Below, piece after piece: positions 369 to 12,525 of a DNA stretch of 64,000 nt. Origin of the DNA: Pseudomonas sp. FP2335 (lineage in GTDB: Bacteria > Pseudomonadota > Gammaproteobacteria > Pseudomonadales > Pseudomonadaceae). A program made the position numbers and the translations under genes. Location: NCBI RefSeq assembly GCF_030687535.1, contig NZ_CP117437.1, positions 4,485,501 to 4,549,500 of the forward strand, read 5' to 3'. How positions within the stretch are numbered: position 1 is the stretch's first letter; every line of letters begins with the position of its first letter. The notes beneath the pieces are model-generated. The model was not told where the DNA came from. It saw only the letters and a program-made list of their open reading frames with translations, and did no database searches.

Positions 369-502
369 TGTAGTGAGCGGGCTTGCCCGCGCTGGGCGGC
401 GCAGCCGCCCCAAATCCAGGCGGCCGCGGTCTTTCTGAAACACCGCGGCGGCCTTATTGGGGCGGCTTCGCCGCCCAGCGCGGGGCAAGCCCGCTCACTA
501 CA
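369..502. repeat. Large inverted repeat between convergent genes
   Basis: The left arm TGTAGTGAGCGGGCTTGCCC and a near-perfect reverse complement ending at 502 enclose GC-rich sub-palindromes (GGCGGC...GCCGCC and GCGGCCG...CGGCC). It resembles the REPIN elements elsewhere in the window in having two REP-like stems facing each other, but its outer sequence (TAGTGAGCGGGC) differs, so it is a separate subfamily. It lies between convergent ppsR and the MocR gene, and its right end contains the MocR stop codon (498-500). It could end transcription from both sides. Confidence 0.8.
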
Positions 503-1922
503 ATTGAAATCGTCCGCCGCCCTGCCCCAGCGCGGTCGCCAGCGCATCAAACCCGGCCAACAGCAACTGATCATCCCCCGACGTATTGCAGATACTCGCC
601 CGAATAAACTGCGGCACCGCCGTCTGCCCCACGGCAAACGCCTCGGCGGTGGCGATCAGGTAATTGTTCTGTTTGAGCTCGGCTTCGATTTCCGACGCGC
701 GCCACGGCTCCGGGACTTCAATCCAGAAGTGCGGGCTGTTTAGGTGCGTGCGGTATTCAAGACCGGCCAACAACCCTTGCACCAAGGCTTTGCGGCGACT
801 GATCTCATTGATCTGCTGGCGCAGCAGGTATTCGGCGGTGCCGTTTTCGATCCACTGTGTCGCCAGTTCTAGCGTCACCGGCGTGGCCATCCAGCAGGTC
901 GAGCGCAGCGCCGCCGAGATGCGGCTGACCAAGGCCGGTGGTGCATGCACATAGCCCACGCGCAACCCGGCAGACACTGCCTTGCTCAAGCTGCTGATCA
1001 AAATCGTACGCTCAGGCGCGAAATAGCTGAGGGGCGGTGGACGATCCTCCACCAGCACGCCGTGGGCTTCATCTTCAAGAATCAGTAGATTGTGTTCCCG
1101 ACAGACCCGGGCCAAGGCTTCGCGGCGCGGAATCGAAAGTACTGCAGTGGTCGGGTTCTGAATGGTCGGCGTGCAATACAACGCCGAAACCCGGTGGTTA
1201 CGACAGACTTCATCCAGCGCCCCCGGCAGCACGCCTTCCTCATCCATCTCCAGGCCGATCAGACGCACACCCAACATGCGCGCCGCCGTGATCAACCCTG
1301 GATAGGTCAGTTGCTCGGTGACCACCGTATCGCCGGCGCGCAGCAACGCCATCATGGCGCAGAGTAAACCGTGCTGGCCGCCGTTGACGCAGATGACCTG
1401 CTCGGGAATCGGATGAAAATCGCGTTGTACCAGCCATTGCGCACCCGCCTCGCGATAACGCGGCAGCCCGGCGTCGGGCGTGTAGGCACTGATGTCCTGG
1501 AGGAACTTGGCGTTGGTCGCCAGGGTTTGCAGGCTCTGGGCCAGGAAGGCCGTTTCCTGCCCGGGAATATGCATGTTGCGGCTCATGTCGAAGTACTGGC
1601 GCGGCTCCTCGCTGAAGTTGCGAAAGCCTTCATCGCGCTGGCGCTCCATCCCCCGCTTGCGCACGAAAGTTCCGTCCCCCACCCGCGCCACCACCAACCC
1701 CAGGCGTTCCAACTCGCCGTAGGCCCGGCTGATGGTGCCGATGGTCACCCCCAGATTGTCGGAAAGCACCCGATGAGGCGGTAGCTTTCGTCCTGGTTCA
1801 ATCAGCCCTTCAAGGATGCCCCGTTCCATGACATCGGACAGGCGCTTGTACTTCACGCCCTGACCGCTGGACAACCCCTCACGCATAATTGACACCATGT
1901 CAATATTTGTTTTGACAGCCAT
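498..1922 (-). CDS. MocR-type transcriptional regulator (GntR HTH plus aminotransferase-like domain)
   Basis: The 474-residue product has a GntR winged helix at about residues 20-90 (RKLPPHRVLSDNLGVTIGTISRAY) and a fold-type-I aminotransferase domain for the remainder. The domain includes the PLP-lysine context ILISSLSKAVSAGLRVGY near residue 315 and NPTT and DEAHG motifs. MocR proteins use PLP, alone or with an amine or amino acid, as effector and usually control a divergent gene. Here that is the EamA exporter at 2026 and the sulfur cluster behind it. The start at 1922 leaves a 103-bp shared intergenic region. The last codon runs into the 369-502 repeat. By analogy with divergent MocR/EamA pairs it may sense an amino acid or PLP adduct such as cysteine-PLP; that is inference. 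Confidence 0.88.
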   Translation of the reverse strand: MAVKTNIDMVSIMREGLSSGQGVKYKRLSDVMERGILEGLIEPGRKLPPHRVLSDNLGVTIGTISRAYGELERLGLVVARVGDGTFVRKRGMERQRDEGFRNFSEEPRQYFDMSRNMHIPGQETAFLAQSLQTLATNAKFLQDISAYTPDAGLPRYREAGAQWLVQRDFHPIPEQVICVNGGQHGLLCAMMALLRAGDTVVTEQLTYPGLITAARMLGVRLIGLEMDEEGVLPGALDEVCRNHRVSALYCTPTIQNPTTAVLSIPRREALARVCREHNLLILEDEAHGVLVEDRPPPLSYFAPERTILISSLSKAVSAGLRVGYVHAPPALVSRISAALRSTCWMATPVTLELATQWIENGTAEYLLRQQINEISRRKALVQGLLAGLEYRTHLNSPHFWIEVPEPWRASEIEAELKQNNYLIATAEAFAVGQTAVPQFIRASICNTSGDDQLLLAGFDALATALGQGGGRFQL

Positions 1923-1950
1923 CTTTCGCCCTAATAGTGTGCTTTTACGG

Positions 1951-2006
1951 GTTCAATCACCGGATGAAACAACTCAATACACAGTCAATATAGAGTTCAA
2001 TTCCGG
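1951..2006. promoter_or_regulatory. Direct repeats in the MocR/EamA intergenic region, candidate operator
   Basis: GTTCAATCACCGG (1951-1963) and GTTCAATTCCGG (1995-2006) are same-orientation near-copies 44 bp apart, lying between the divergent starts at 1922 and 2026. MocR dimers typically bind two direct repeats in such regions. No clear -35/-10 pair is visible for either direction. Operator function is inferred from position and repetition only. Confidence 0.45.
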
Positions 2007-2025
2007 CTCATGGAAGTAATAAACG

Positions 2026-2976
2026 ATGCCAATGTCCGCCGTTCTCGAAAACACTGAAAAAACCAAATCCCAGAAACAATGGCTGGCCGGCCTGGTCACC
2101 AGCGTGATGTTCCTGATCGTGTGCCTGAGCTGGGGCACCACCTGGCTGGGCATCAAGATCGCCGTGGAGAGCGTGCCGCCGCTGACGTCCGCCGGCCTGC
2201 GCTTCCTGATCGCCTTCCCGCTGTTCCTGTGTTTTGCCATGGTGCGCCGGGAGCCGATCCTGTTTCCCCGGGAAAGCCGCTGGTTCTTCGTGTTCGTGAC
2301 GCTTTCCTACTTCAGTGTTCCTTATTACCTGCTCAACTACGGCGAGATGCATGTCTCGTCCGGGCTTACCGCCCTGCTGTTCAGTTGCATGCCGGTGTTC
2401 ATCCTGATTTTCTCCGCGCTGTTCCTGCGCGAGCGCATCTACTTCTCCCAGGTGGTCGGCATCGGCATCGGTTTCGGCAGCCTCTACATGATCATCAAGA
2501 GCCAGGGCCTGCACCTGGACCACGCCGAGTTTCTCGGGGTACTGGCCATTCTGAGCGCCGCGATCATGCACGCCTTGTGCTACGTCATTACCAAGCAAAA
2601 AGGCAGCGCCATCAGCGTGATCACTTACAACACCCTGCCCATCGGCATTGCCGGGCTGATGCTGTTCGTGGCGGGCCTGTGGTTTGAAACGCCGACCTTC
2701 GAGGCCATCACCCTGCGCTCCTGGAGCGCGTTGTTCTACCTGGGGCTGGTGGCCTCGGTCGGCGGGTTCATCGTGTACTTCATGCTGCTCAAGCGCTTGA
2801 GCCCGATCATCCTGTCGTTCGTGTTCATCATCTTTCCGGTGTTCGCGGTGATCATCGGCGCCTGGTACGAAGGCATGGCGATTTCCCGCGACCTGATGCT
2901 GTACTCGGCCATCCTGCTGGCCGGCTTTGCGATCACCAAGTTGCCGATTGAAAAACTCCTGGCCAAGAAAAATTGA
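2026..2976 (+). CDS. EamA/DMT-family transporter, probable metabolite exporter
   Basis: The 316-residue product is strongly hydrophobic and shows the two-repeat, ten-helix layout of drug/metabolite transporters. The first EamA repeat opens with CLSWGTTWLGIKIAVES at about residues 35-50, and the second starts near residue 165 (FLGVLAILSAAIMHALCY). Members export amino acids and related metabolites; YdeD/EamA of E. coli exports O-acetylserine and cysteine. The start at 2026 is preceded by GGAAG ten bases upstream; a second ATG two codons on is possible. The gene is divergent from the MocR regulator and 38 bp ahead of the JAMM/E1 fusion gene. An exporter or overflow valve for a cysteine-pathway intermediate therefore fits, but the substrate cannot be read from sequence. 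Confidence 0.85.
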   Translation: MPMSAVLENTEKTKSQKQWLAGLVTSVMFLIVCLSWGTTWLGIKIAVESVPPLTSAGLRFLIAFPLFLCFAMVRREPILFPRESRWFFVFVTLSYFSVPYYLLNYGEMHVSSGLTALLFSCMPVFILIFSALFLRERIYFSQVVGIGIGFGSLYMIIKSQGLHLDHAEFLGVLAILSAAIMHALCYVITKQKGSAISVITYNTLPIGIAGLMLFVAGLWFETPTFEAITLRSWSALFYLGLVASVGGFIVYFMLLKRLSPIILSFVFIIFPVFAVIIGAWYEGMAISRDLMLYSAILLAGFAITKLPIEKLLAKKN

Positions 2977-3014
2977 GCTTGCGGCCCCATCAACATCAAC
3001 CACGCGAGAGAAAC

Positions 3015-4877
3015 ATGGACGTCCTCCGCCCAAAAGCCCTGGAACAGATCTACGCCCACGCCAGCTCTAGCTATCCCGAGGAATGCTGTGGCTTCGTCTT
3101 CGCCGACGGCAGTGTGCACCTGGGCAGCAATATCCAGAACGAGCTGCACCGCAAGAACCCCCAGATATACCCGCGCACCGCCGCCAACGGCTACACCTTC
3201 TCGGTGGCCGACACCCTACTGATGAACAAGGCGTCTCGCGGCAACAACCCGGTGGTAGTGATCTATCACTCCCACCCCGACGTAGGCGCCTACTTCAGTG
3301 ACGAAGACCAGGACAAGGCGCTGTTCATGGGCGAACCGATCTTCCCTGTGAGTTATCTGGTGGTCGACGTTCGCCAGGGCCACGCCCTGGGCTCAAAGCT
3401 GTTTGCCTGGGATGGCAAGCATTTCGCCCTCAACCCTTTCAACGACCTGCACACGGAGTTGTCCATGAACGCTGTCTCTTTCCCCGACATTCTGGTTCGC
3501 GTAGCCAAGCTGCCGGAATCGACCCTTGAAGGCACCGGATCGACATTGCGCGAAGTCATTGAAAACCTCTGCATCAACCACCCGCAACTGCGTCCGCACC
3601 TGTTCCACGAGAAGAACAACCAGCTCAAGGAGCACTTCCTGTTTACCGCCGAGGAAGAACTGGTGGGCGCCGATGATCGCCTCCCGGAAAAGGCCAGGAT
3701 CGAAGTGCTGCTCGCCACTTCTGGCGGCATCAATGTCGACACGCTGAGCAATGAAGAGGTGCAGCGCTATGTGCGCCACATCACCCTGCCCGGCGTCGGC
3801 CGCGAAGGCCAGTTGAACCTCAAGAAAGCCAAGGTGCTGATCATCGGCACCGGCGGCCTGGGCTCGCCCATCAGCCTGTACCTGGCGGCAGCCGGCATCG
3901 GCACCCTGGGGCTGGTGGATTTCGACGTGGTGGAAAGCAGCAACCTGCAACGCCAGATCGTCCACGGCAACAGCACGTTGGGCCTGCCCAAGGTCGAGTC
4001 CGCCAAGCAGCGCCTGCAAGACCTCAACCGCCACATCCAGATCAATGCCCACGACACCGCCCTGAATGCCGACAACGCCCTGGAGCTGGTGGGCGCCTAC
4101 GATCTGGTGATCGACGGCACCGACAATTTCGACACCCGCTACCTGGTCAATGACGCCTGCGTCCAGCTTGGCAAACCCCTGGTGTACGGCGCCATCTACC
4201 GCTTCGACGGGCAGATCAGCGTGCTCAACTATAAAGGTGGGCCGTGCTACCGCTGCCTGTTCCCCCAGGCTCCGCCCGCCGAACTGGCGCCCAATTGCAG
4301 CGCCGGCGGGGTCATCGGCGTGCTGCCCGGCGTGGTCGGGATGATCCAGGCCACCGAAGCGATCAAATTGCTGATCGGCATCGGCGAACCCTTGTCCGGC
4401 CGCCTGATGCGCTTCGATGCGCTGGCGATGAAGTTCAGCGAGATCCGCTTCAAGCGCCGCGCCGACTGCCCGTGCTGCTCGGACCTGCGCCACAGCCAGA
4501 CCCAGGCGCCAGCGGTCTGCGCCGACGCCGTGCCAAGCCAGCCGTCGCTGGCCGCAGAACGCTACATCAAGCCCCGCGTCCTCAAGCAACTGCTCGAACA
4601 CCACCACAGCGCCGATGTGCTGCTGGACGTGCGTGACGCCAGCGAACTGGAAGTGTGCAAACTACCAGGCGTGGTGCACATTCCCCTGGCCGAACTGGAC
4701 AGGCAACTCGACAGCCTCAGCCGCGACAATACCCACTACCTGATCTGCTACGCCGGCACCCGCGCCGAACAAGCTGCCACGACCCTGCTGGCGGCCGGTT
4801 TCGCCAACACCAAGGTCTTGCAGGGCGGGATGAAACACTGGGTGCGCGACGTCGAACCCGACATGCCGCTGTATTGA
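3015..4877 (+). CDS. Four-domain fusion: JAMM peptidase, MoaD/ThiS-like ubiquitin fold, E1 (MoeB/ThiF), rhodanese
   Basis: The 620-residue protein has four readable parts. Residues 1-145 are a JAMM/MPN+ metallopeptidase with Glu23 and a perfect HxHPx6SxxD motif (His85, His87, Ser95, Asp98). Residues about 152-240 resemble a MoaD/CysO/ThiS beta-grasp domain ending in RIEVLLATSGG, with the Gly-Gly at 237-238 inside the chain. Residues about 243-490 are a MoeB/ThiF/MOCS3-type E1 with nucleotide loop GTGGLGS (278-284), Arg313, the DGTDNF motif (367-372), Cys428 in the NCSAGG context, and paired zinc cysteines (411/414, 485/488). Residues about 515-620 are a rhodanese with Cys578 in the loop CYAGTR. 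The E1 would adenylate the carrier C-terminus, the rhodanese supply sulfur, and the JAMM domain release a product or process the carrier. The ATG at 3015 follows a GAGAG ribosome site. Together with the CysK- and CysE-like genes downstream it resembles CysO-CysM-Mec of mycobacteria in one chain. Confidence 0.88.
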   Translation: MDVLRPKALEQIYAHASSSYPEECCGFVFADGSVHLGSNIQNELHRKNPQIYPRTAANGYTFSVADTLLMNKASRGNNPVVVIYHSHPDVGAYFSDEDQDKALFMGEPIFPVSYLVVDVRQGHALGSKLFAWDGKHFALNPFNDLHTELSMNAVSFPDILVRVAKLPESTLEGTGSTLREVIENLCINHPQLRPHLFHEKNNQLKEHFLFTAEEELVGADDRLPEKARIEVLLATSGGINVDTLSNEEVQRYVRHITLPGVGREGQLNLKKAKVLIIGTGGLGSPISLYLAAAGIGTLGLVDFDVVESSNLQRQIVHGNSTLGLPKVESAKQRLQDLNRHIQINAHDTALNADNALELVGAYDLVIDGTDNFDTRYLVNDACVQLGKPLVYGAIYRFDGQISVLNYKGGPCYRCLFPQAPPAELAPNCSAGGVIGVLPGVVGMIQATEAIKLLIGIGEPLSGRLMRFDALAMKFSEIRFKRRADCPCCSDLRHSQTQAPAVCADAVPSQPSLAAERYIKPRVLKQLLEHHHSADVLLDVRDASELEVCKLPGVVHIPLAELDRQLDSLSRDNTHYLICYAGTRAEQAATTLLAAGFANTKVLQGGMKHWVRDVEPDMPLY

Positions 4878-4892
4878 GCCGGGGATCGACTG

Positions 4893-5807
4893 ATGCTGCA
4901 TAACTCCATCCTCGACGTGATCGGCCACACGCCCATCGTGCGTCTGGCGCAGTTTTCCGAAGACCTCGGCATCGAGGTCTACGCCAAGCTCGAATCCCTC
5001 AACCCCGGCGGCAGCCACAAGGCGCGCATCGCCCTGGGCATGATCCTCGACGCCGAACGGCGTGGCGTGCTGATCCGCAACGCCGGGCAAACCATCATCG
5101 AGCCCAGTGGCGGCAACACCGGCATTGGCCTGGTAATGGCCGGCAATGTGCTGGGCTACAAAGTGGTGCTGGTGATCCCCGATAACTACAGCCCGGAAAA
5201 ACAGAAGTTGCTGCGCCTCTACGGGGCCAAGGTGGTGCTGTCGGACAGCCGCCTGGGCAACAACTCCCATGGCGAAAAGTGCCTGGAAATGCAGCTGGAA
5301 AACCCCAGCTACGTGATGCTCAACCAGCAGCGCAATGGTGCCAATCCGCAAACCCACCGCGAGACCACCGCGCCGGAGATCCTGCGTGCCTTCGGTGATC
5401 TGCGCGTGGACTACTTCGTCAGCGGCATCGGCACCGGCGGCCATATCACCGGCATCGGCGAAACCCTCAAGGCCACATGGCCGCAGCTGCGGGTGATGGG
5501 CGTGGAGCCGGAAGAATGCGACCTGCTGAAAAACCAGCACGCGCCGCACCATATCCAGGGCCTGTCGATTGGCCTGATTCCGAGCATTCTCAACCTCGAC
5601 GTACTGGACGGCATGCTCAAGGTGTCGCGCCAGGAGTGCATCGACATGATGAAACGCATCATGCGCACGGACGCCATCAGCCTGGGCCTGTCCTCGGCGG
5701 CCAATATGGTCGCCATCGCCAGGCTCGCCCCGGAACTGCCCACCGAAACGGTGGTACTGACCATGGTCTACGACAATGCCGACAGCTACCTGCCCAGTTT
5801 CGAATAA
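4893..5807 (+). CDS. Cysteine-synthase-family PLP enzyme (CysK/CysM-like)
   Basis: The 304-residue product is a fold-type-II PLP enzyme. The cofactor lysine is Lys43 in NPGGSHKAR, the substrate loop is EPSGGNTGIGL (70-80), and the phosphate-binding loop is GIGTGGHITG near residue 173. It starts 15 bp after the fusion gene and is followed 37 bp later by a serine acetyltransferase, so all three are almost certainly co-transcribed. Family members replace the acetyl or phosphate group of an activated serine with a sulfur nucleophile. The neighbouring E1/ubiquitin-fold protein suggests the nucleophile is a protein thiocarboxylate, as for mycobacterial CysM. The loop after Lys43 differs from housekeeping CysK, so it is unlikely to be the main cysteine synthase. 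A cystathionine- or diaminopropionate-type product is an alternative. Confidence 0.86.
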   Translation: MLHNSILDVIGHTPIVRLAQFSEDLGIEVYAKLESLNPGGSHKARIALGMILDAERRGVLIRNAGQTIIEPSGGNTGIGLVMAGNVLGYKVVLVIPDNYSPEKQKLLRLYGAKVVLSDSRLGNNSHGEKCLEMQLENPSYVMLNQQRNGANPQTHRETTAPEILRAFGDLRVDYFVSGIGTGGHITGIGETLKATWPQLRVMGVEPEECDLLKNQHAPHHIQGLSIGLIPSILNLDVLDGMLKVSRQECIDMMKRIMRTDAISLGLSSAANMVAIARLAPELPTETVVLTMVYDNADSYLPSFE

Positions 5808-5844
5808 ACGGTTTCCCAACCATCCAGAATGTGGGGGTGCCTCC

Positions 5845-6837
5845 ATGGGGGGCTTTATTGACATGCAACAGCTGCACGATGAGTTGCTCACCCACCTCAT
5901 CAAGACCCTTACGCCAACGCAGATGAAGCAGCTGGAACCACACCTGGCGCCCTTGGTGCAGAACGCCGCCCAGGCCGTGGCCGAAGACCTGATCGCCTAC
6001 GCCTACCGTGACCCGGCGTCGCGCGGGCGCGGCGAACTGATCCTGGAGTCCTACGCCTCGTTCAAGGCTGTGCTGTTCTATCGCCTGGCGCACCTGGTGT
6101 GGAATTTCCCGGACCAGACCAACGGCGTGTTTTCACGCATTGCCCTCAAGCTCAGCAACCAGGGCAAGATCCTCTCCGGCGCCGAGATCCACCCGGCCGC
6201 GCGCATCGGCCGGCGCTTTGTGCTCGACCATGGCTACGGCACCGTGATCGGCGAGACCTGCGAGATCGGCAACGACTGCTACATCCTCTGCGGCGTGACC
6301 CTCGGTGCCCGTGGCATTGCCAACAACCCGGACGGCAAGCGCCACCCGCGCCTGGGCAACAACGTCGAGATCGGCTCCGGCGCGCGCGTGCTGGGTTATG
6401 TGCTGATCGGCGACGACGTGTTCATCAGCCCCTCCTGCGTGATCACCCAGGACGTGCCGGCGGGCACCAAGGTCAAGGTGGTGAACCAGGTGCAATTGCA
6501 AAAAAACGACGAGTCGGACCATAGCAACTACCTCGGGGCCTTCGCCCTCGACGAGCGCCTGCACGTGGTCGGCGAGATCAATGCCAACCACAAGGTCACC
6601 GTGCTGGACGCCGACTTTCACCCCTTGCAGGGGTTGTTGCTCGAACCCACGGTGAAAGAACGCCATCACCTGCAGTTCCGCCTGCACCGCATCGACTCGG
6701 ACGGCTACCTGCCGCGCCTGCCGCTGAACCTCAAGGTCTGCGGCCCGGAGTTTGAAATCACCCTGCTCTCCCCCCCTGGCTTGAGCGCAATGGTGCGTCA
6801 TTTATTGCAAGCCAGCCCACTGATCGTCCGAGGTTGA
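5845..6837 (+). CDS. Serine O-acetyltransferase with an extra C-terminal domain
   Basis: The 330-residue product carries a left-handed beta-helix of hexapeptide repeats at about residues 114-215. The catalytic Asp128-His129 pair sits in RRFVLDHGYG, followed by VIGET and RHPRLGN, as in CysE/EpsC. It would make O-acetylserine from serine and acetyl-CoA for the preceding synthase homologue. The N-terminal helical domain is complete. About 105 residues after the beta-helix (225-330) are not part of ordinary SATs, end in a hydrophobic tail, and are of unknown fold. Two starts are plausible, 5845 (GGGGG eight bases upstream) and 5863. A start further upstream would overlap the previous gene. The next gene begins two bases after its stop. 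Confidence 0.86.
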   Translation: MGGFIDMQQLHDELLTHLIKTLTPTQMKQLEPHLAPLVQNAAQAVAEDLIAYAYRDPASRGRGELILESYASFKAVLFYRLAHLVWNFPDQTNGVFSRIALKLSNQGKILSGAEIHPAARIGRRFVLDHGYGTVIGETCEIGNDCYILCGVTLGARGIANNPDGKRHPRLGNNVEIGSGARVLGYVLIGDDVFISPSCVITQDVPAGTKVKVVNQVQLQKNDESDHSNYLGAFALDERLHVVGEINANHKVTVLDADFHPLQGLLLEPTVKERHHLQFRLHRIDSDGYLPRLPLNLKVCGPEFEITLLSPPGLSAMVRHLLQASPLIVRG

Positions 6838-6839
6838 AT

Positions 6840-7568
6840 ATGTCCGTGCACACCATGGAAACCCTGGCGCTGTTTGACAGCGCGCCCTACCAGAACGCAT
6901 TCAGCGCCCGGGTGATTGCCGTCAGCGAACACGGCATTGCCCTGGAACACACGTTGTTCTACCCCACCGGCGGCGGGCAACCGGGCGACACCGGCCACTT
7001 AACCCTGGCGGACGGCACGCGGGTCGAGGTGGTCGGTACGGTACGCGACCCGGTGCTGCGTTCGATCATCTGGCACCAGGTGGAACACTGCCCCGAACAA
7101 TTGACCGCCGGTGTGCAAGTCGACGCCGGCCTCGATTGGGAGCGACGCTACCAGCACATGAAGATGCACACCTGCCTGCACCTGTTGTGCTCGCTGATCG
7201 ATGCCCCCGTGACCGGCTGCAGCATCAGCGCCGACAAAGGCCGCCTGGACTTCGACCTGCCGGAAATGACCCTCGACAAAGACAGCCTCACCCGCGACCT
7301 CAATGCGCTGATCGAACAGGCCCACACGGTAAAGGCCCTGGCGATGCCCGCCTCGGAATACGCCACCCTGCTGCAGATCACCCGCACCCAGGCGGTCGCG
7401 CCGCCAGTGATCCAGGGCTCGGTGCGCATCATTGAAATCGCCGGCATCGACATCCAGCCCTGCGGCGGCACCCATGTGATCAACACCGAGGAAATCGGCC
7501 GGGTGTTCTGCGAGAAGATCGAGAAGAAGAGCAAACACAACCGGCGGGTGATCCTGCGCTTCGAGTAA
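6840..7568 (+). CDS. AlaX-type alanyl-tRNA editing protein
   Basis: The 242-residue product matches the stand-alone editing domain related to the second half of AlaRS. It has HxxxH (His106, His110 in YQHMKMH) and CxxxH (Cys208, His212 in QPCGGTHV), which together bind the catalytic zinc, plus the FYPTGGGQPGDTG segment at residues 40-52. Such proteins hydrolyse Ser-tRNA(Ala) or Gly-tRNA(Ala) in trans. The start at 6840 gives a two-base gap after the acetyltransferase; an upstream TTG at 6834 is less likely. Its tight linkage to a serine-consuming pathway suggests it either clears a mischarged amino acid made by the pathway or has been adapted to act on a small-molecule or protein ester. That second role is speculative. 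Confidence 0.88.
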   Translation: MSVHTMETLALFDSAPYQNAFSARVIAVSEHGIALEHTLFYPTGGGQPGDTGHLTLADGTRVEVVGTVRDPVLRSIIWHQVEHCPEQLTAGVQVDAGLDWERRYQHMKMHTCLHLLCSLIDAPVTGCSISADKGRLDFDLPEMTLDKDSLTRDLNALIEQAHTVKALAMPASEYATLLQITRTQAVAPPVIQGSVRIIEIAGIDIQPCGGTHVINTEEIGRVFCEKIEKKSKHNRRVILRFE

Positions 7569-7806
7569 TGGCCACGCAGCTGGGGAGCCAACCCCCCGGC
7601 CGCTTTTCGTACAGCGAACTGACAGGAAATTTATCCGCCTTGTAACATTCAGAAACGTAGAATCTCGCCAGCAGGTCATCGTCCTGATGCACTGCCACCT
7701 GACTCTCGGAGAAAGAGCGCCCGCCCCTTCTCGCGGGGTCTTTCGAACAGAAGCCAAGCTCACCCCACCGCTCCCCTGAACCTGAACGCTGCAGGAATGA
7801 CTGCCT

Positions 7807-9552
7807 ATGAATAAAGTGCTCCGTCACTACATACCAGCATCCACCATGCGCTTGCTGCCCAACCGTTGGGATTTGGTCGCCCTGCCGCTGGTGATCGGCT
7901 TTCTGCTGTTTTTTTCCATCACTGCGCGGGAAACCTGGGCCCCCATCGAGACGCTGCAGAGCGAGGTCATTTCCCTCGACCCCGCCAACCTGCCGGAATA
8001 TGCGATGCGCACCACCCTGCGCATGCTCGCGGCGATGGTCGCGGCGCTGATCTTCACCCTGCTCTACGGCACCCTGGCCGCCAAAAGCCGGCGCGCCGAA
8101 AAACTGCTGGTGCCCGTGCTCGACATCCTGCAATCGGTGCCGGTGCTCGGTTACATCTCGTTTACCGTGACCTTCTTCCTGCTGCTGTTTCCCGGCCGCG
8201 TGCTGGGCGCAGAGTTCGCGGCGATCTTCGCGATCTTCACCAGCCAGGCCTGGAACATGACGTTCAGCTTCTACCAGTCGCTGCGCATGCTGCCCCATGA
8301 CCTGGTGGAAGTGTCCACCAACCTGCGGCTGTCCGGCTGGCAACGCTTCTGGAAGCTCGACGTGCCGTTCGCCATGCCGGGGCTGGTGTGGAACATGATG
8401 ATGAGCATGTCCGGCGGCTGGTTTTTCGTGGTCGCCTCCGAAGCCATCACCGTCGGCGACAAGACCATCACCCTGCCCGGCGTCGGTTCGTACCTGGCCT
8501 TGGCCATTGCCCAGAAAGACCTGCATGCCGTGGGCTATGTGATCCTGGCGATGATCGCGGTGATCCTGATCTACGACCAGTTCCTGTTCCGCCCACTGGT
8601 GGCCTGGGCCGACAAGTTCCGCATGGAAACCACCGCCTCCCAGGGCGCTGCGCCGCAATCCTGGGTGCTGAACCTGATCCAGCGCACGCGCATGGTTCAA
8701 CGCATCCTGCGCCCCATCACCCGCGCCATCGGCCGCATCGGCAACAAACGCTTCAGGCTCGCCGGCGGCGCGTTCAAGGCATTGCCGAGCGAATCGCCGG
8801 CAGCGTCCAAGGTGATCGATTGGGTATGGGGCGGGTTGATTGGCCTGCTCACGGCCTACGCGCTGTACCACATCGTGCAGTACGTCGGCACCGAAGTGAC
8901 CTTCGCCGAGGTCGGCCATGTCTTCGTGCTCGGTTTGATAACCCTGCTGCGAGTGACCGGCCTGATCCTGATTGCCTCGCTGATCTGGGTACCGCTGGGC
9001 GTGATGATCGGCCTGCGTCCGCGCCTGGCGCAAAAGATCCAGCCCGTGGCGCAGTTCCTCGCGGCGTTTCCGGCGAACCTGCTGTTCCCGGTATTCGTCA
9101 TTGTGATCCTGCACTACCACCTCAACCCGGACATCTGGCTCAGCCCGCTGATCGTCCTGGGCACCCAGTGGTACATCCTGTTCAACGTGGTGGCCGGGGC
9201 CAGCGCGTTTCCCAATGACTACAAGGAAGCCGCCGCCAACTTCCGCATTCGCGGCTGGCTGTGGTGGCGCAAGGTGATGCTGCCGGGCATTTTCCCGTAC
9301 TACGTCACCGGCGCGATTACCGCATCGGGTGGCGCATGGAACGCCAGCATCGTTTCCGAGTATGTGTCCTGGGGCCAGGACAATGTGGTCGCCCACGGCC
9401 TTGGCGCCTACATTGCACAAACCACCGCGGCGGGCGACTTCCCGAAAATCGCCCTGGGCGTGGTGGTGATGTCGATCTTTGTGGTGGTCTTCAACCGTGC
9501 GGTCTGGCGCCCGATGTACGCCATGGCTGAGAACAAACTGCGTCTGAATTGA
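7807..9552 (+). CDS. ABC transporter permease with two fused BPD domains (NitT/TauT type)
   Basis: The 581-residue membrane protein contains two permease halves. The first, roughly residues 15-280, has the EAA-type loop VEVSTNLRLSGWQRFWKLDVPFA at about 165-187, with no more than two short breaks from consensus. The second, roughly 335-581, repeats it as KEAAANFRIRGWLWWRKVMLPG near 475-496. A positively charged linker joins them. This is the layout of nitrate/sulfonate/taurine-type importers in which both permeases are fused. It starts 238 bp after the AlaX gene, so it may have its own promoter; the gap holds only a weak hairpin at about 7719-7739. No periplasmic binding protein gene lies beside it. 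Substrate is unknown; a sulfur compound would fit the upstream cluster. Confidence 0.86.
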   Translation: MNKVLRHYIPASTMRLLPNRWDLVALPLVIGFLLFFSITARETWAPIETLQSEVISLDPANLPEYAMRTTLRMLAAMVAALIFTLLYGTLAAKSRRAEKLLVPVLDILQSVPVLGYISFTVTFFLLLFPGRVLGAEFAAIFAIFTSQAWNMTFSFYQSLRMLPHDLVEVSTNLRLSGWQRFWKLDVPFAMPGLVWNMMMSMSGGWFFVVASEAITVGDKTITLPGVGSYLALAIAQKDLHAVGYVILAMIAVILIYDQFLFRPLVAWADKFRMETTASQGAAPQSWVLNLIQRTRMVQRILRPITRAIGRIGNKRFRLAGGAFKALPSESPAASKVIDWVWGGLIGLLTAYALYHIVQYVGTEVTFAEVGHVFVLGLITLLRVTGLILIASLIWVPLGVMIGLRPRLAQKIQPVAQFLAAFPANLLFPVFVIVILHYHLNPDIWLSPLIVLGTQWYILFNVVAGASAFPNDYKEAAANFRIRGWLWWRKVMLPGIFPYYVTGAITASGGAWNASIVSEYVSWGQDNVVAHGLGAYIAQTTAAGDFPKIALGVVVMSIFVVVFNRAVWRPMYAMAENKLRLN

Positions 9553-9568
9553 GGGGCAATTTGCCGAG

Positions 9569-10891
9569 ATGAGTACCTATACCGAACACACTGCCGACAC
9601 CCCGGAAATCTACTCGCTGAAAAATGTGAACCGGGTGTTCGGCAAAGGCAAAGACGAGCTGCAAGTGCTCAGCGGCGTGGACCTGAGCCTGCACGAAGGC
9701 GAGATCGTCGGCATGCTCGGCCGTTCCGGTTCCGGCAAGTCGACCTTGCTGCGCATTATTGCCGGGCTGATCCAGCCGTCGTCGGGCGACGTGCGCTACC
9801 ACGGCGTACCGCTGACCGGCCCGGCCGAAGGCGTGGCCATGGTGTTCCAGACCTTTGCCCTGTTCCCGTGGCTGACCGTGCTGGAAAACGTCGAGGCCGG
9901 CCTGCAAGCCTTGCAGGTCGAACGCAAGGAAGCCCGCCGCCGTGCCCTGGCCGCCATCGACCTGATCGGCCTGGACGGTTTTGAAAACGCCTACCCCCGC
10001 GAATTGTCCGGCGGCATGCGCCAGCGCGTCGGGTTTGCCCGTGGCCTGGTGGTCAACCCGACCCTGCTGCTGATGGACGAACCCTTCTCCGCCCTCGACG
10101 TGCTCACCGCCGAAACCCTGCGCACCGACTTGCTGGAGCTGTGGAGTGGCAAGCAATTACCGATCAAATCGATCCTGATCGTGACCCACAACATCGAAGA
10201 AGCGGTGTTGATGTGCGACCGCATCCTGGTGCTGTCCTCCAACCCCGGCCGGGTGGTCGCCGAGATCAAGGTGCCGTTTGCCCACCCACGCAACCGCCTG
10301 GACCCGACGTTCCGGCAAATGGTCGATGACATCTACGCGCTGATGACCGACCGACGCAGCGCCGATGCCAGCGCCGGCAAGCCGGAGTTGAAGATGAGCA
10401 GCCTGCTGCCGGAAGTCTCCACCAACCTGATGGCCGGCCTGATCGAAACCCTGGCCGCCGAGCCCTACAACGGCCACGCGGGCTTGCCCAACGTGGCCGA
10501 GCGGCGCTTGCTGGAAGTCGACGACCTGTTCCCGGTGGCCGAGATGCTCGAGCATTTGGGCTTCGCCGAACTCAAGGGCGCCGACATCACCCTCACCGAC
10601 GCCGGCAAACTGTTTGCCGACTACGGCACCCAGGAACGCAAGACCCTGTTCGCCGAGCACCTGATCCAGCACGTACCGCTGGCCGCGCGCATTCACCAGG
10701 TACTGCTCGAACGCAGCGGGCACCGCGCGCCACGGGTGCGTTTCGAACAGGAGTTGGAAGACTCGATGACCGAAGCCTTCGTGGAAAAGACCCTGGAAAG
10801 CGTGGTGGCGTGGGGGCGGTACGCGGAGATTTTCTCCTACGACGACCACACTGAGACATTCAGCCTGGAAGACGTCGAAGGCAGCATGTAG
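9569..10891 (+). CDS. ABC transporter ATPase with C-terminal AAA-associated domain
   Basis: The 440-residue product has an ABC domain in residues 1-255: Walker A GRSGSGKST (about 51-59), signature LSGGMRQRVGFARG (about 148-161), Walker B LLLMDEPFSALD, and a switch histidine in VTHNIEEAV. This is followed by about 180 residues containing the AAA-associated domain often fused to NitT/TauT ATPases. That domain resembles a winged-helix dimer and its role is unclear. The gene begins 16 bp after the fused permease and completes an importer engine lacking its own solute-binding subunit. A REPIN follows the stop codon. Confidence 0.88.
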   Translation: MSTYTEHTADTPEIYSLKNVNRVFGKGKDELQVLSGVDLSLHEGEIVGMLGRSGSGKSTLLRIIAGLIQPSSGDVRYHGVPLTGPAEGVAMVFQTFALFPWLTVLENVEAGLQALQVERKEARRRALAAIDLIGLDGFENAYPRELSGGMRQRVGFARGLVVNPTLLLMDEPFSALDVLTAETLRTDLLELWSGKQLPIKSILIVTHNIEEAVLMCDRILVLSSNPGRVVAEIKVPFAHPRNRLDPTFRQMVDDIYALMTDRRSADASAGKPELKMSSLLPEVSTNLMAGLIETLAAEPYNGHAGLPNVAERRLLEVDDLFPVAEMLEHLGFAELKGADITLTDAGKLFADYGTQERKTLFAEHLIQHVPLAARIHQVLLERSGHRAPRVRFEQELEDSMTEAFVEKTLESVVAWGRYAEIFSYDDHTETFSLEDVEGSM

Positions 10892-10917
10892 TTAGTCAGG
10901 ACCAACACAGTTCCAAA

Positions 10918-11007
10918 TGTGGGAGCGGGCTTGCTCGCGAAAGCGGTGTTTCAGCCAGCACAGGTAGCGACTGACACTCCGCTTTCGCGAGCAAGCCCGC
11001 TCCCACA
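10918..11007. repeat. REPIN element
   Basis: TGTGGGAGCGGGCTTGCTCG opens the left REP. About 50 bases later its reverse complement closes the element, with both stems carrying CGCGAAAGCGG / CCGCTTTCGCG. It lies between the convergent ABC ATPase gene and prpD. Confidence 0.92.
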
Positions 11008-11040
11008 CAAGCTCACTTCGACATTGAATCTCTGGTGTTT

Positions 11041-12525
11041 TCAGATTACGAACAAATCCACAAAGCGATTGACCGGCGTGGCCTCAAGCTTCGCCTGATC
11101 CTTGCACAACGCAAAAATCTCCCCGCTGCGCTGCGCGGTAAACCGCGTGGCCAGGTTGGCCTTGAACTTGTCTTCCAGCAATGCAATACCCTCCACCCGA
11201 CGACGGCGATGACCAATCGGGTATTCCACCGCCACCTGCTCGGTACTGGAGCCGTCCGTGAAAAACACCTGCACCGCGTTGGCAATTGAGCGTTTGTCGG
11301 CTTCCAGGTATTCGCGGCTGTAGCGCAGCTCTTCGACGATGACCATCTTGTCGCGCAACGCGTCGATGATCGGGTGCGCGGCGTGGAATTCATCTTCGTA
11401 CTGCTCGGCCACCAAATTGCCAAACGCCAGCGGCACGGCGGTCATGTATTGCAGGCAGTGGTCACGGTCGGCAGCGTTGGCCAGTTGGCCGACCTTGGAG
11501 ATGATGCGGATCGCCGATTCATGGGTGGTGATCACGATGCGCTCGATTTCATGCAGGCGATCCTTGACCAACGGGTGCAAGGTCACGGCGGCTTCGCAGG
11601 CGGTTTGCGCGTGGAACTCGGCGGGGAAGCTGATCTTGAACAGCACGTTTTCCATCACGTAAGTGCCGTAGGGCTGGGGCAGGCTGAATGCGCGTTTGTC
11701 TTCGGGCTTGAGGGCCAGGTCCTTGTTGGTGTGGCTGAACAGCACGTCGTAGAAACCCCATTGCGGCGCGCTCAAGACGCCGGGGATGCCCATCTCGCCA
11801 CGCAGGGCGATGTCGGCCAGGCGCACACCGCGACTCGACGCATCCCCCGCCGCCCATGACTTGCGCGAACCCGCGTTCGGCGCGTGCCGATAGGTGCGCA
11901 GCGCCTGCCCATCGACAAACGCGTGGGACAGCGCGGCAAGCAACTGCTCGCGACTGGCCCCCATCAGCTTGGCGGTCACCGCCGTGGAGGCAACTTTCAC
12001 TAACAGCACATGGTCGAGGCCGACACGATTGAACGAGTTTTCCAGGGCAATCACTCCCTGGATCTCATGGGCCATGATCATCGCTTCGAGTACCGCACGC
12101 ATAGTCAGCGGCGCATCACCGTTGGCCACGCGTTTTTGTGAGAGGTGATCGGCCACGGCGAGGATGGCGCCGAGGTTATCCGAAGGGTGGCCCCATTCAG
12201 CAGCGAGCCAGGTGTCGTTGTAGTCAAGCCAACGCACGATGCAGCCGATGTCCCACGCGGCCTTGACCGGGTCCAAGCGGAACGAGGTGCCCGGCACCCG
12301 TGCACCGAACGGCACCACCGTGCCCTCGACAATCGGCCCCAGGTGCTTGGTGCACTCGGGGAAACGCAGGGCCAGCAGGCCGCACCCCAGGGTGTCCATC
12401 AGGCAGTTGCGGGCGGTGTCCAGGGCGACCTGGGAATCGATCCGGTAGTTGAGGACGTAGTCGGCGATGTCCTGCAGGACCTGGTCGTAGTCGGGGCGGT
12501 TGTTCTGGTCGACGTTGGCGCTCAT
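11041..12525 (-). CDS. prpD: 2-methylcitrate dehydratase PrpD
   Basis: The 494-residue product belongs to the MmgE/PrpD family, with [21 protein letters not shown] near residues 45-65 and [24 protein letters not shown] near 113-135. It dehydrates 2-methylcitrate to 2-methyl-cis-aconitate in the methylcitrate cycle that detoxifies propionyl-CoA. It is last in the minus-strand order prpR-prpB-prpC-acnD-prpF-prpD. It is separated from prpF by 229 bp containing a REPIN, so it may be partly uncoupled from the operon. Because the cluster also encodes the AcnD/PrpF route for the same step, the two dehydratases overlap. Length and motifs are as expected. Confidence 0.95.

Follow-up and report, generated by a model that had tools for sequence, protein, structure and literature searches.

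What can a single bacterial polypeptide do that joins a JAMM peptidase, a ubiquitin-like carrier-like domain, an E1-like adenylating enzyme and a rhodanese? The question is raised by a 64,000-nucleotide stretch of Pseudomonas sp. FP2335 (contig NZ_CP117437.1, positions 4,485,501 to 4,549,500; hereafter the window, to which all coordinates refer), from a genome that is a single contig of 6.06 Mb. Here an open reading frame (ORF) without a stop (3015..4877, + strand) encodes all four modules, in this order, within 620 residues, and the single four-module chain is confirmed by Pfam matches and orthologs. We consider it probable that this chain forms a sulfur-carrier module that is self-contained and matures itself. 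For comparison, 80 loci were kept out of 158 confirmed relatives: 64 with complete fused frames, 13 split and three whose frame is of fused type but broken. Thirteen further loci from other genomes, possibly repeats, bring the complete fused loci to 77; the genome of the window contributes two of these (L002, L003), and the 77 comprise 71 distinct nucleotide sequences. Glu23, Cys428 and the sequence ATSGG are unvaried across all 77.

The first-pass annotation had read four intact modules in this chain, and indeed all the motifs that it named are present, with strong Pfam matches for Prok-JAB, ThiF and rhodanese. The JAMM/MPN+ domain (residues 7-119, 3033..3371; PF14464, E = 4e-16) combines the JAB profile with the metal site of the family, read from the translation as Glu23 and H85-S-H87-P-x6-S95-x-x-D98; its HSHPDVGAYFS..D motif recurs in every one of the 77 complete fused loci, and the JAMM motif in all 14 JAMM-only frames. 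The E1-like domain, of MoeB/UBA4 type (residues 252-487, 3768..4475; PF00899, E = 4e-82), matches the folds of Uba4 (6yub, the best match), MoeB (1jw9) and ThiF in Foldseek and carries GTGGLGS at 278-284, Cys428 (4296-4298) and two CxxC pairs, 411/414 and 485/488, both unvaried across a 41-row alignment. In the rhodanese domain (residues 524-611, 4584..4847; PF00581, E = 2e-14), whose CYAGTR loop starts at Cys578, C578, G581 and R583 are unvaried in a 21-row alignment, as are C578 and R583 in the 41-row one. ThiF-family matches above the cut-off in this genome are limited to this protein and two other places, 897996, which we take to be MoeB, and 1449905, presumably TcdA; no separate ThiF was seen among them. 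The ThiF domain, nucleotide loop, catalytic Cys, two CxxC pairs and C-terminal rhodanese with its Cys loop place the protein among the MoeBR type. The passages that define MoeZ describe NYRD in place of the first CxxC and a second motif that is mostly missing, both pairs being kept in MoeB and MoeBR (PMC3227635), so by this criterion the label MoeZ or MoeZR does not apply here. The earlier comparison with mycobacteria thus holds for the CysO likeness of the carrier and fails for the E1: because the latter is MoeB-like, the resemblance to the mycobacterial pathway lies in function and does not extend to the identity of the subunits.

A carrier with a beta-grasp fold, placed between JAMM and E1 at first reading, is likewise borne out. 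The ubiquitin-like (CysO/MoaD/SAMP1-like) domain occupies residues 151-238 (3465..3728) and ends at Gly237-Gly238 (3723-3728). Modelled in isolation it reaches a mean predicted local distance difference test (pLDDT) of 90, with CysO, a MoaD relative and SAMP1 as nearest structures; submitted alone, the segment scores 24.6 bits against ThiS (cut-off 22.5), which 14 of 17 homologous carrier segments also match. Fold and profile are those of the ThiS/MoaD/CysO family, but the GG is not at the polypeptide C-terminus. Since Gly237-Gly238 is internal as encoded, we speak of a carrier-like domain rather than of a finished carrier. The linker that follows (residues 239-251, 3729..3767) is of low model confidence, pLDDT in the full model being below 50 at 236-244 and 247-253, and it would begin at the presumed JAMM cut, Gly238/Ile239.

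This internal GG is conserved. ATSGG (residues 234-238) is unchanged in 90 aligned loci (77 fused and 13 split), and GG stands at this site in all of 31 aligned proteins, followed by Ile, Met, Leu, Val, Ser or Thr. A carrier-domain profile run against 274 genomes of the class gave 14 matches: the window, a carrier-E1 fusion whose frame breaks soon afterwards (L103), and 12 separate carriers, all 12 of which terminate as ALSGG-stop exactly at the aligned GG position. As standalone carriers end there, the internal GG is the counterpart of a working C-terminus. Formation of a thiocarboxylate, in the established chemistry of MoaD, ThiS and CysO, requires a free carboxylate; if the domain acts as a carrier, the chain would therefore have to be cut after Gly238. 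Such a cut is well motivated by the alignments, and we infer the fused JAMM to be its agent. Related events are described for Mycobacterium tuberculosis MoaX, the activity of which depends on cleavage between Gly82 and Ser83 (PMC4326299), and for DRJAMM, which cleaves a MoaD-MoaE fusion to leave a C-terminal Gly (PMC8832034).

Directly at the start of the carrier-like domain lies a retained internal ribosome-binding site and start (3453..3467, + strand): GGAG at 3455-3458, six bases and an ATG at 3465-3467, which is Met151. After exclusion of one of the 77 fused loci (L070), which failed the junction pattern, GGAG is kept in all 76 loci compared, even in those where Met or Ala replaces the Thr whose codon contains its first G. 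In the 13 split loci, the presumed carrier start is in every case the homologous ATG with GGAG before it. Synonymous variation in the 71 sequences tells the same: the lowest 15 of 612 nine-codon windows begin at codons 142-150 (nine windows, with 0.06-0.19 of the gene-mean variation) or at codons 173-178 (six windows). Near Met151 the value is 0.094 of the gene mean, compared with 0.75-1.49 at the eight other internal Met codons. As a chance level, GGAG lies 4-8 bases before four of 290 internal ATG codons, Met151 included, in 47 genes that a crude call placed in the window. Probably, to judge by this constraint, the site still initiates translation of a 470-residue carrier-E1-rhodanese protein alongside the four-part chain. 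Weighing against this, ribosomes might pause rather than initiate at an internal site that resembles a Shine-Dalgarno sequence; pausing is the less good explanation, because it fits less well with an ATG that has been retained, with the quiet codons that follow it and with relatives that start at this very site.

The second block nearly devoid of synonymous variation spans 3537-3563, codons 175-183 (GGA TCG ACA TTG CGC GAA GTC ATT GAA), in the 71 fused genes. RNAalifold paired the two low-variation stretches into an RNA structure at the junction, which was considered and dropped: its covariation term is about zero, the sequence of the window gives no better fold than shuffles (z = +0.95), and the duplex ranks 216th of 577 same-offset pairs in the gene. 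A sigma-70 scan of 1900-5000 returned no internal promoter.

How did the four-part chain arise? JAMM and carrier-E1-rhodanese are separate neighbouring genes in the 13 split loci of the 80-locus set, which include P. alcaligenes, P. otitidis, P. indica, Paraburkholderia and Vreelandella. In a tree of 105 rows, built by a quick method with midpoint root and with split rows that include 27 database proteins of unchecked JAMM neighbourhood, the 65 fused rows form one clade (SH-aLRT 99%) beside the split P. fluorescens PS691. Because the fused proteins form a single clade, the four-part chain is derived, apparently and most simply by one merger of adjacent JAMM and carrier-E1-rhodanese genes. What is new here is this chain as one clade from separate genes, with the ribosome-binding site and ATG of the second gene kept.

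The nearest named relative is Pseudomonas sp. PDM05, with 99% identity across residues 1-242. Among 199 genomes of the genus, the window's own included, we found 35 strong matches: 32 in which a single frame of at least 636 codons covers JAMM and carrier, the presence of E1 and rhodanese being deduced from frame length alone; one with a short single frame of 260 codons (G176); and two that look split (G028, two frames; G148, one stop inside). A one-frame JAMM-carrier in 32 of 199 genomes means that the four-part frame is no assembly artefact. Frames of fused type are broken after residue 482 (L057), near 322-327 (L064) and near 172 (L077); together with the short frame of G176, these may reflect draft sequence or real decay. 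A protein search with the JAMM-carrier part returned 87 matches, 61 of which have JAB, ThiF and rhodanese together; the organism, where stated for these 61, is Pseudomonas, and one match from a eukaryote data set is probably contamination.

The best functional clue is given by the neighbouring CysK-, CysE- and AlaX-like genes together with EamA. Beside JAMM and carrier-E1-rhodanese, four neighbours occur in all 80 loci: a MocR-like regulator (GntR plus aminotransferase; 498..1922, - strand), divergent from the operon, and on the + strand an EamA-family exporter (2026..2976; PF00892, E = 8e-43), a cysteine-synthase-like pyridoxal phosphate (PLP) enzyme with divergent motifs (4893..5807) and a serine-acetyltransferase-like protein with a long C-terminal extension (5776..6837; NCBIfam cysE, E = 3e-43, at 147.8 bits under the cut-off of 210.65). 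An AlaX-like tRNA editing protein (6834..7568, + strand), with HxxxH and CGGTH intact, is present in 79 of 80, its motifs in 79 of 79; it is absent from L085, where CysE is on the opposite strand, and the gene order is altered in L026. The CysK-like enzyme shows SHK[AVT]R, EPSGGNTG and GTGGH in 80 of 80 loci, in place of which its best PDB match, 9jxu, has SIKDR, EPTSGNTG and GTGGT; among solved structures, O-ureido-L-serine synthase (3x43) comes second. The substrate of the CysK-like enzyme may differ from that of the solved cysteine synthase. The placement of AlaX beside sulfur amino acid genes suggests a mischargeable product or intermediate. Between AlaX and prpD, some loci have a 581-residue ABC permease and an ATPase with a C-terminal AAA_assoc_C domain (7807-10891 in the window); prpD without this pair is seen in 38 of 80 loci.

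A kit of this kind was predicted long ago. The survey of Iyer et al. (2006) lists for P. aeruginosa, in Table 1, row 4c, an operon of ThiS/MoaD, E1-rhodanese, JAB and cysteine synthase (PMC1779556), and the present locus belongs to this operon class; its passages on class 4c mention no fusion of the carrier with the E1. In P. aeruginosa, PA2101 is described as EamA-like, PA2102 as JAB1/PAD1, PA2103 as MoeB, PA2104 as cysteine synthase (34% identical to E. coli CysK), PA2105 as an acetyltransferase and PA2106 as having an AlaS domain. By gene content, as described in papers, our locus would correspond to the PA2100-PA2106 region, and this region is probably what class 4c lists for P. aeruginosa, although the 2006 text names no PA numbers. 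The JAMM is a separate gene in PA2101-PA2106, whereas in the clade of the window it is fused and the old start site is kept. Of the first-pass idea of a sulfur-transfer kit in one chain, the single chain therefore stands and the novelty of the kit does not; the interpretation as a whole was partly right, leaving the adjacent CysK, CysE, AlaX and EamA genes unused and missing the internal ribosome-binding site and start. Literature searches, mostly among papers outside subscription, returned no biochemical study of the fused form or of its split relatives.

Other systems share parts of this arrangement. The mycobacterial CysO, MoeZR, CysM and Mec are separate proteins with a MoeZ-type E1 and a carrier that ends at GG as encoded, and we know of no AlaX or EamA in that pathway. 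MoaX and the Deinococcus radiodurans MoaD-MoaE with DRJAMM likewise hold a carrier within a fusion whose activity depends on cleavage after GG, but there the carrier is joined to MoaE, not to its own E1, and the peptidase is separate. Uba4/MOCS3 similarly unites E1 and rhodanese in one chain; Urm1 is separate and no JAMM is fused. QbsC, QbsD and QbsE, for thioquinolobactin, also comprise E1-rhodanese, JAMM and a ThiS/MoaD-like carrier. The same holds for PdtF, PdtG and PdtH of PDTC (PMC1779556). Both clusters have an AMP ligase for the substrate carboxylate, whereas none was found among the eight neighbouring ORFs scanned from 498 to 12525, which sets the locus apart from thiocarboxylate siderophore clusters.

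Our best reading is a CysO-like supply of thiocarboxylate for a specialised cysteine-synthase-like enzyme. The CysO-like domain would be produced as an internal segment and the JAMM, in cis or in trans, would cut after Gly238 and free the carrier C-terminus. The E1 would then adenylate Gly238, and the rhodanese persulfide, with Cys428 as a possible relay, would turn the adenylated glycine into a thiocarboxylate, from which the carrier would hand sulfur to the adjacent cysteine-synthase-like enzyme. With activated serine provided by the CysE-like enzyme, the CysK-like one would make a beta-substituted alanine, cysteine or a relative. If the product is carrier-linked, as in mycobacteria, the same JAMM could release it, since that bond likewise follows GG. 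The internal start would supply the 470-residue protein in excess over JAMM; export could proceed via EamA and protection via AlaX. A sulfur amino acid is the likely product, everyday cysteine a less likely one. We regard as improbable, but worth stating, a bolder version: a self-processing polyprotein with a second, internal-start product, in which every chain would come with a carrier of its own that the JAMM sets free, so that carrier, activator and releaser are produced in a set ratio; the thiocarboxylate would go to the divergent CysK-like enzyme, and this would make a non-standard sulfur amino acid that EamA exports and from which AlaX shields the maker's tRNA.

Several observations weigh against thiocarboxylate supply. 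The JAMM part of the structure model is poor (pLDDT 31-49, from a shallow alignment, A3, from which JAMM-only sequences were excluded as misaligned) and so confirms neither the JAMM fold nor its geometry towards Gly238; in the whole protein the ThiS match at 160-238 falls below the cut-off (19.4 bits); Z values do not separate the CysO fold from that of SAMP1; and the CxxC pairs make the E1 resemble MoeB, whereas the E1 known to activate CysO is a MoeZR. The altered CysK-like motifs further mean that the enzyme may not make cysteine, and in P. aeruginosa a cysK cysM double deletion, with PA2104 still on the chromosome, showed no growth up to 18 h and recovered afterwards, the cause of the recovery being unsettled (PMC12800425). 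Because this PA2104-bearing mutant fails to grow, the operon is not the everyday cysteine route there, even if the authors suspect PA2104 and/or PA1061 in its residual growth. The same facts bear on a narrower case of our best reading, namely that the operon is a backup for ordinary cysteine under stress, like mycobacterial CysO-CysM-Mec. CysO is among the nearest carrier folds and the CysK- and CysE-like neighbours are constant; PA2101-PA2104 and PA2106 appear in a P. aeruginosa RpoH paper (PMC9866376), in a table taken here apart from its heading, at fold changes of 2.2-4.3, and PA2100-PA2103 in a table of the N-acetylcysteine response (PMC9431628). Against this, divergent CysK motifs, an exporter and AlaX are unexpected for plain cysteine, and we hold this narrower case possible without favouring it.

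The fusion may also be near neutral, the halves working as before, with the internal start giving most of the carrier-E1-rhodanese and the chain itself having no special function. One fusion of adjacent cistrons with a strongly kept old start signal would look much like this, and the same JAMM type is joined to other partners (EamA, aminotransferases) too. However, 33 of the 35 strong matches in the genus have no stop between JAMM and carrier, so the junction stays open in many species; as this openness overlaps with the start-site constraint, it is weak evidence, and the 77 fused loci, selected for an open frame, were not counted towards it. We find near-neutrality somewhat unlikely. Clearly less plausible is that the ubiquitin-like domain stays attached for good at the N-terminus of the E1, structural or regulatory in role and never free, and that the E1 serves another carrier such as MoaD or ThiS. 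Iyer et al. describe ThiF with a fused N-terminal ubiquitin-like domain as typically co-occurring with a separate ThiS, and deduce a different role for that domain (PMC1779556), and this genome has two other ThiS-family places; but ATSGG, unvaried in 90 loci, is placed as the C-terminus of 12 of 12 standalone relatives while later residues vary, and no separate carrier was found among the eight ORFs scanned. Least credible to us is ubiquitin-like protein modification, with the E1 charging the carrier and the JAMM deconjugating, as for archaeal SAMP1. Pfam scans of the protein and seven neighbours gave no E2, as a bacterial E1-E2-JAMM conjugation or defence system would have; the PADLOC matches listed (25 of 32) are all to E1-E2 models, partial, and essentially confined to the E1 core, for which we set a defence or conjugation reading aside; and the rhodanese with the CysK and CysE neighbours indicates sulfur chemistry.

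If thiocarboxylate supply is right, a 20-year-old prediction of comparative genomics, that JAMM acts with carriers beyond those for thiamine and the molybdenum cofactor, would become a one-protein system with one clear bond to probe, Gly238-Ile239. The locus is also a natural experiment: two cistrons were apparently joined once in species of the P. fluorescens group, with the downstream start under selection, and a fused gene with a kept start makes a clean case for how bacteria hold two products. The conserved operon, finally, sets an exporter and a tRNA editor beside a cysteine synthase of divergent type, and no product assigned to it was found.

Outside this locus, the genome has one other JAB place (L001), read as sequence only and presumably a phage tail-tip gene, which was set aside. 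In P. indica (L082, L083), an EamA-JAMM fusion had seemed indicated by an open frame of great length, and the genes turned out to lie in different, overlapping frames. In six database proteins (P0068, P0072, P0074, P0075, P0076 and P0080), an EamA exporter is joined to the same JAMM type. In two others (P0078, P0081), a ThiS-like domain with an internal GG precedes the JAMM, which is followed by a class III aminotransferase, and in P0087 and P0088 the same JAMM type is joined to a PLP enzyme of Cys/Met metabolism.
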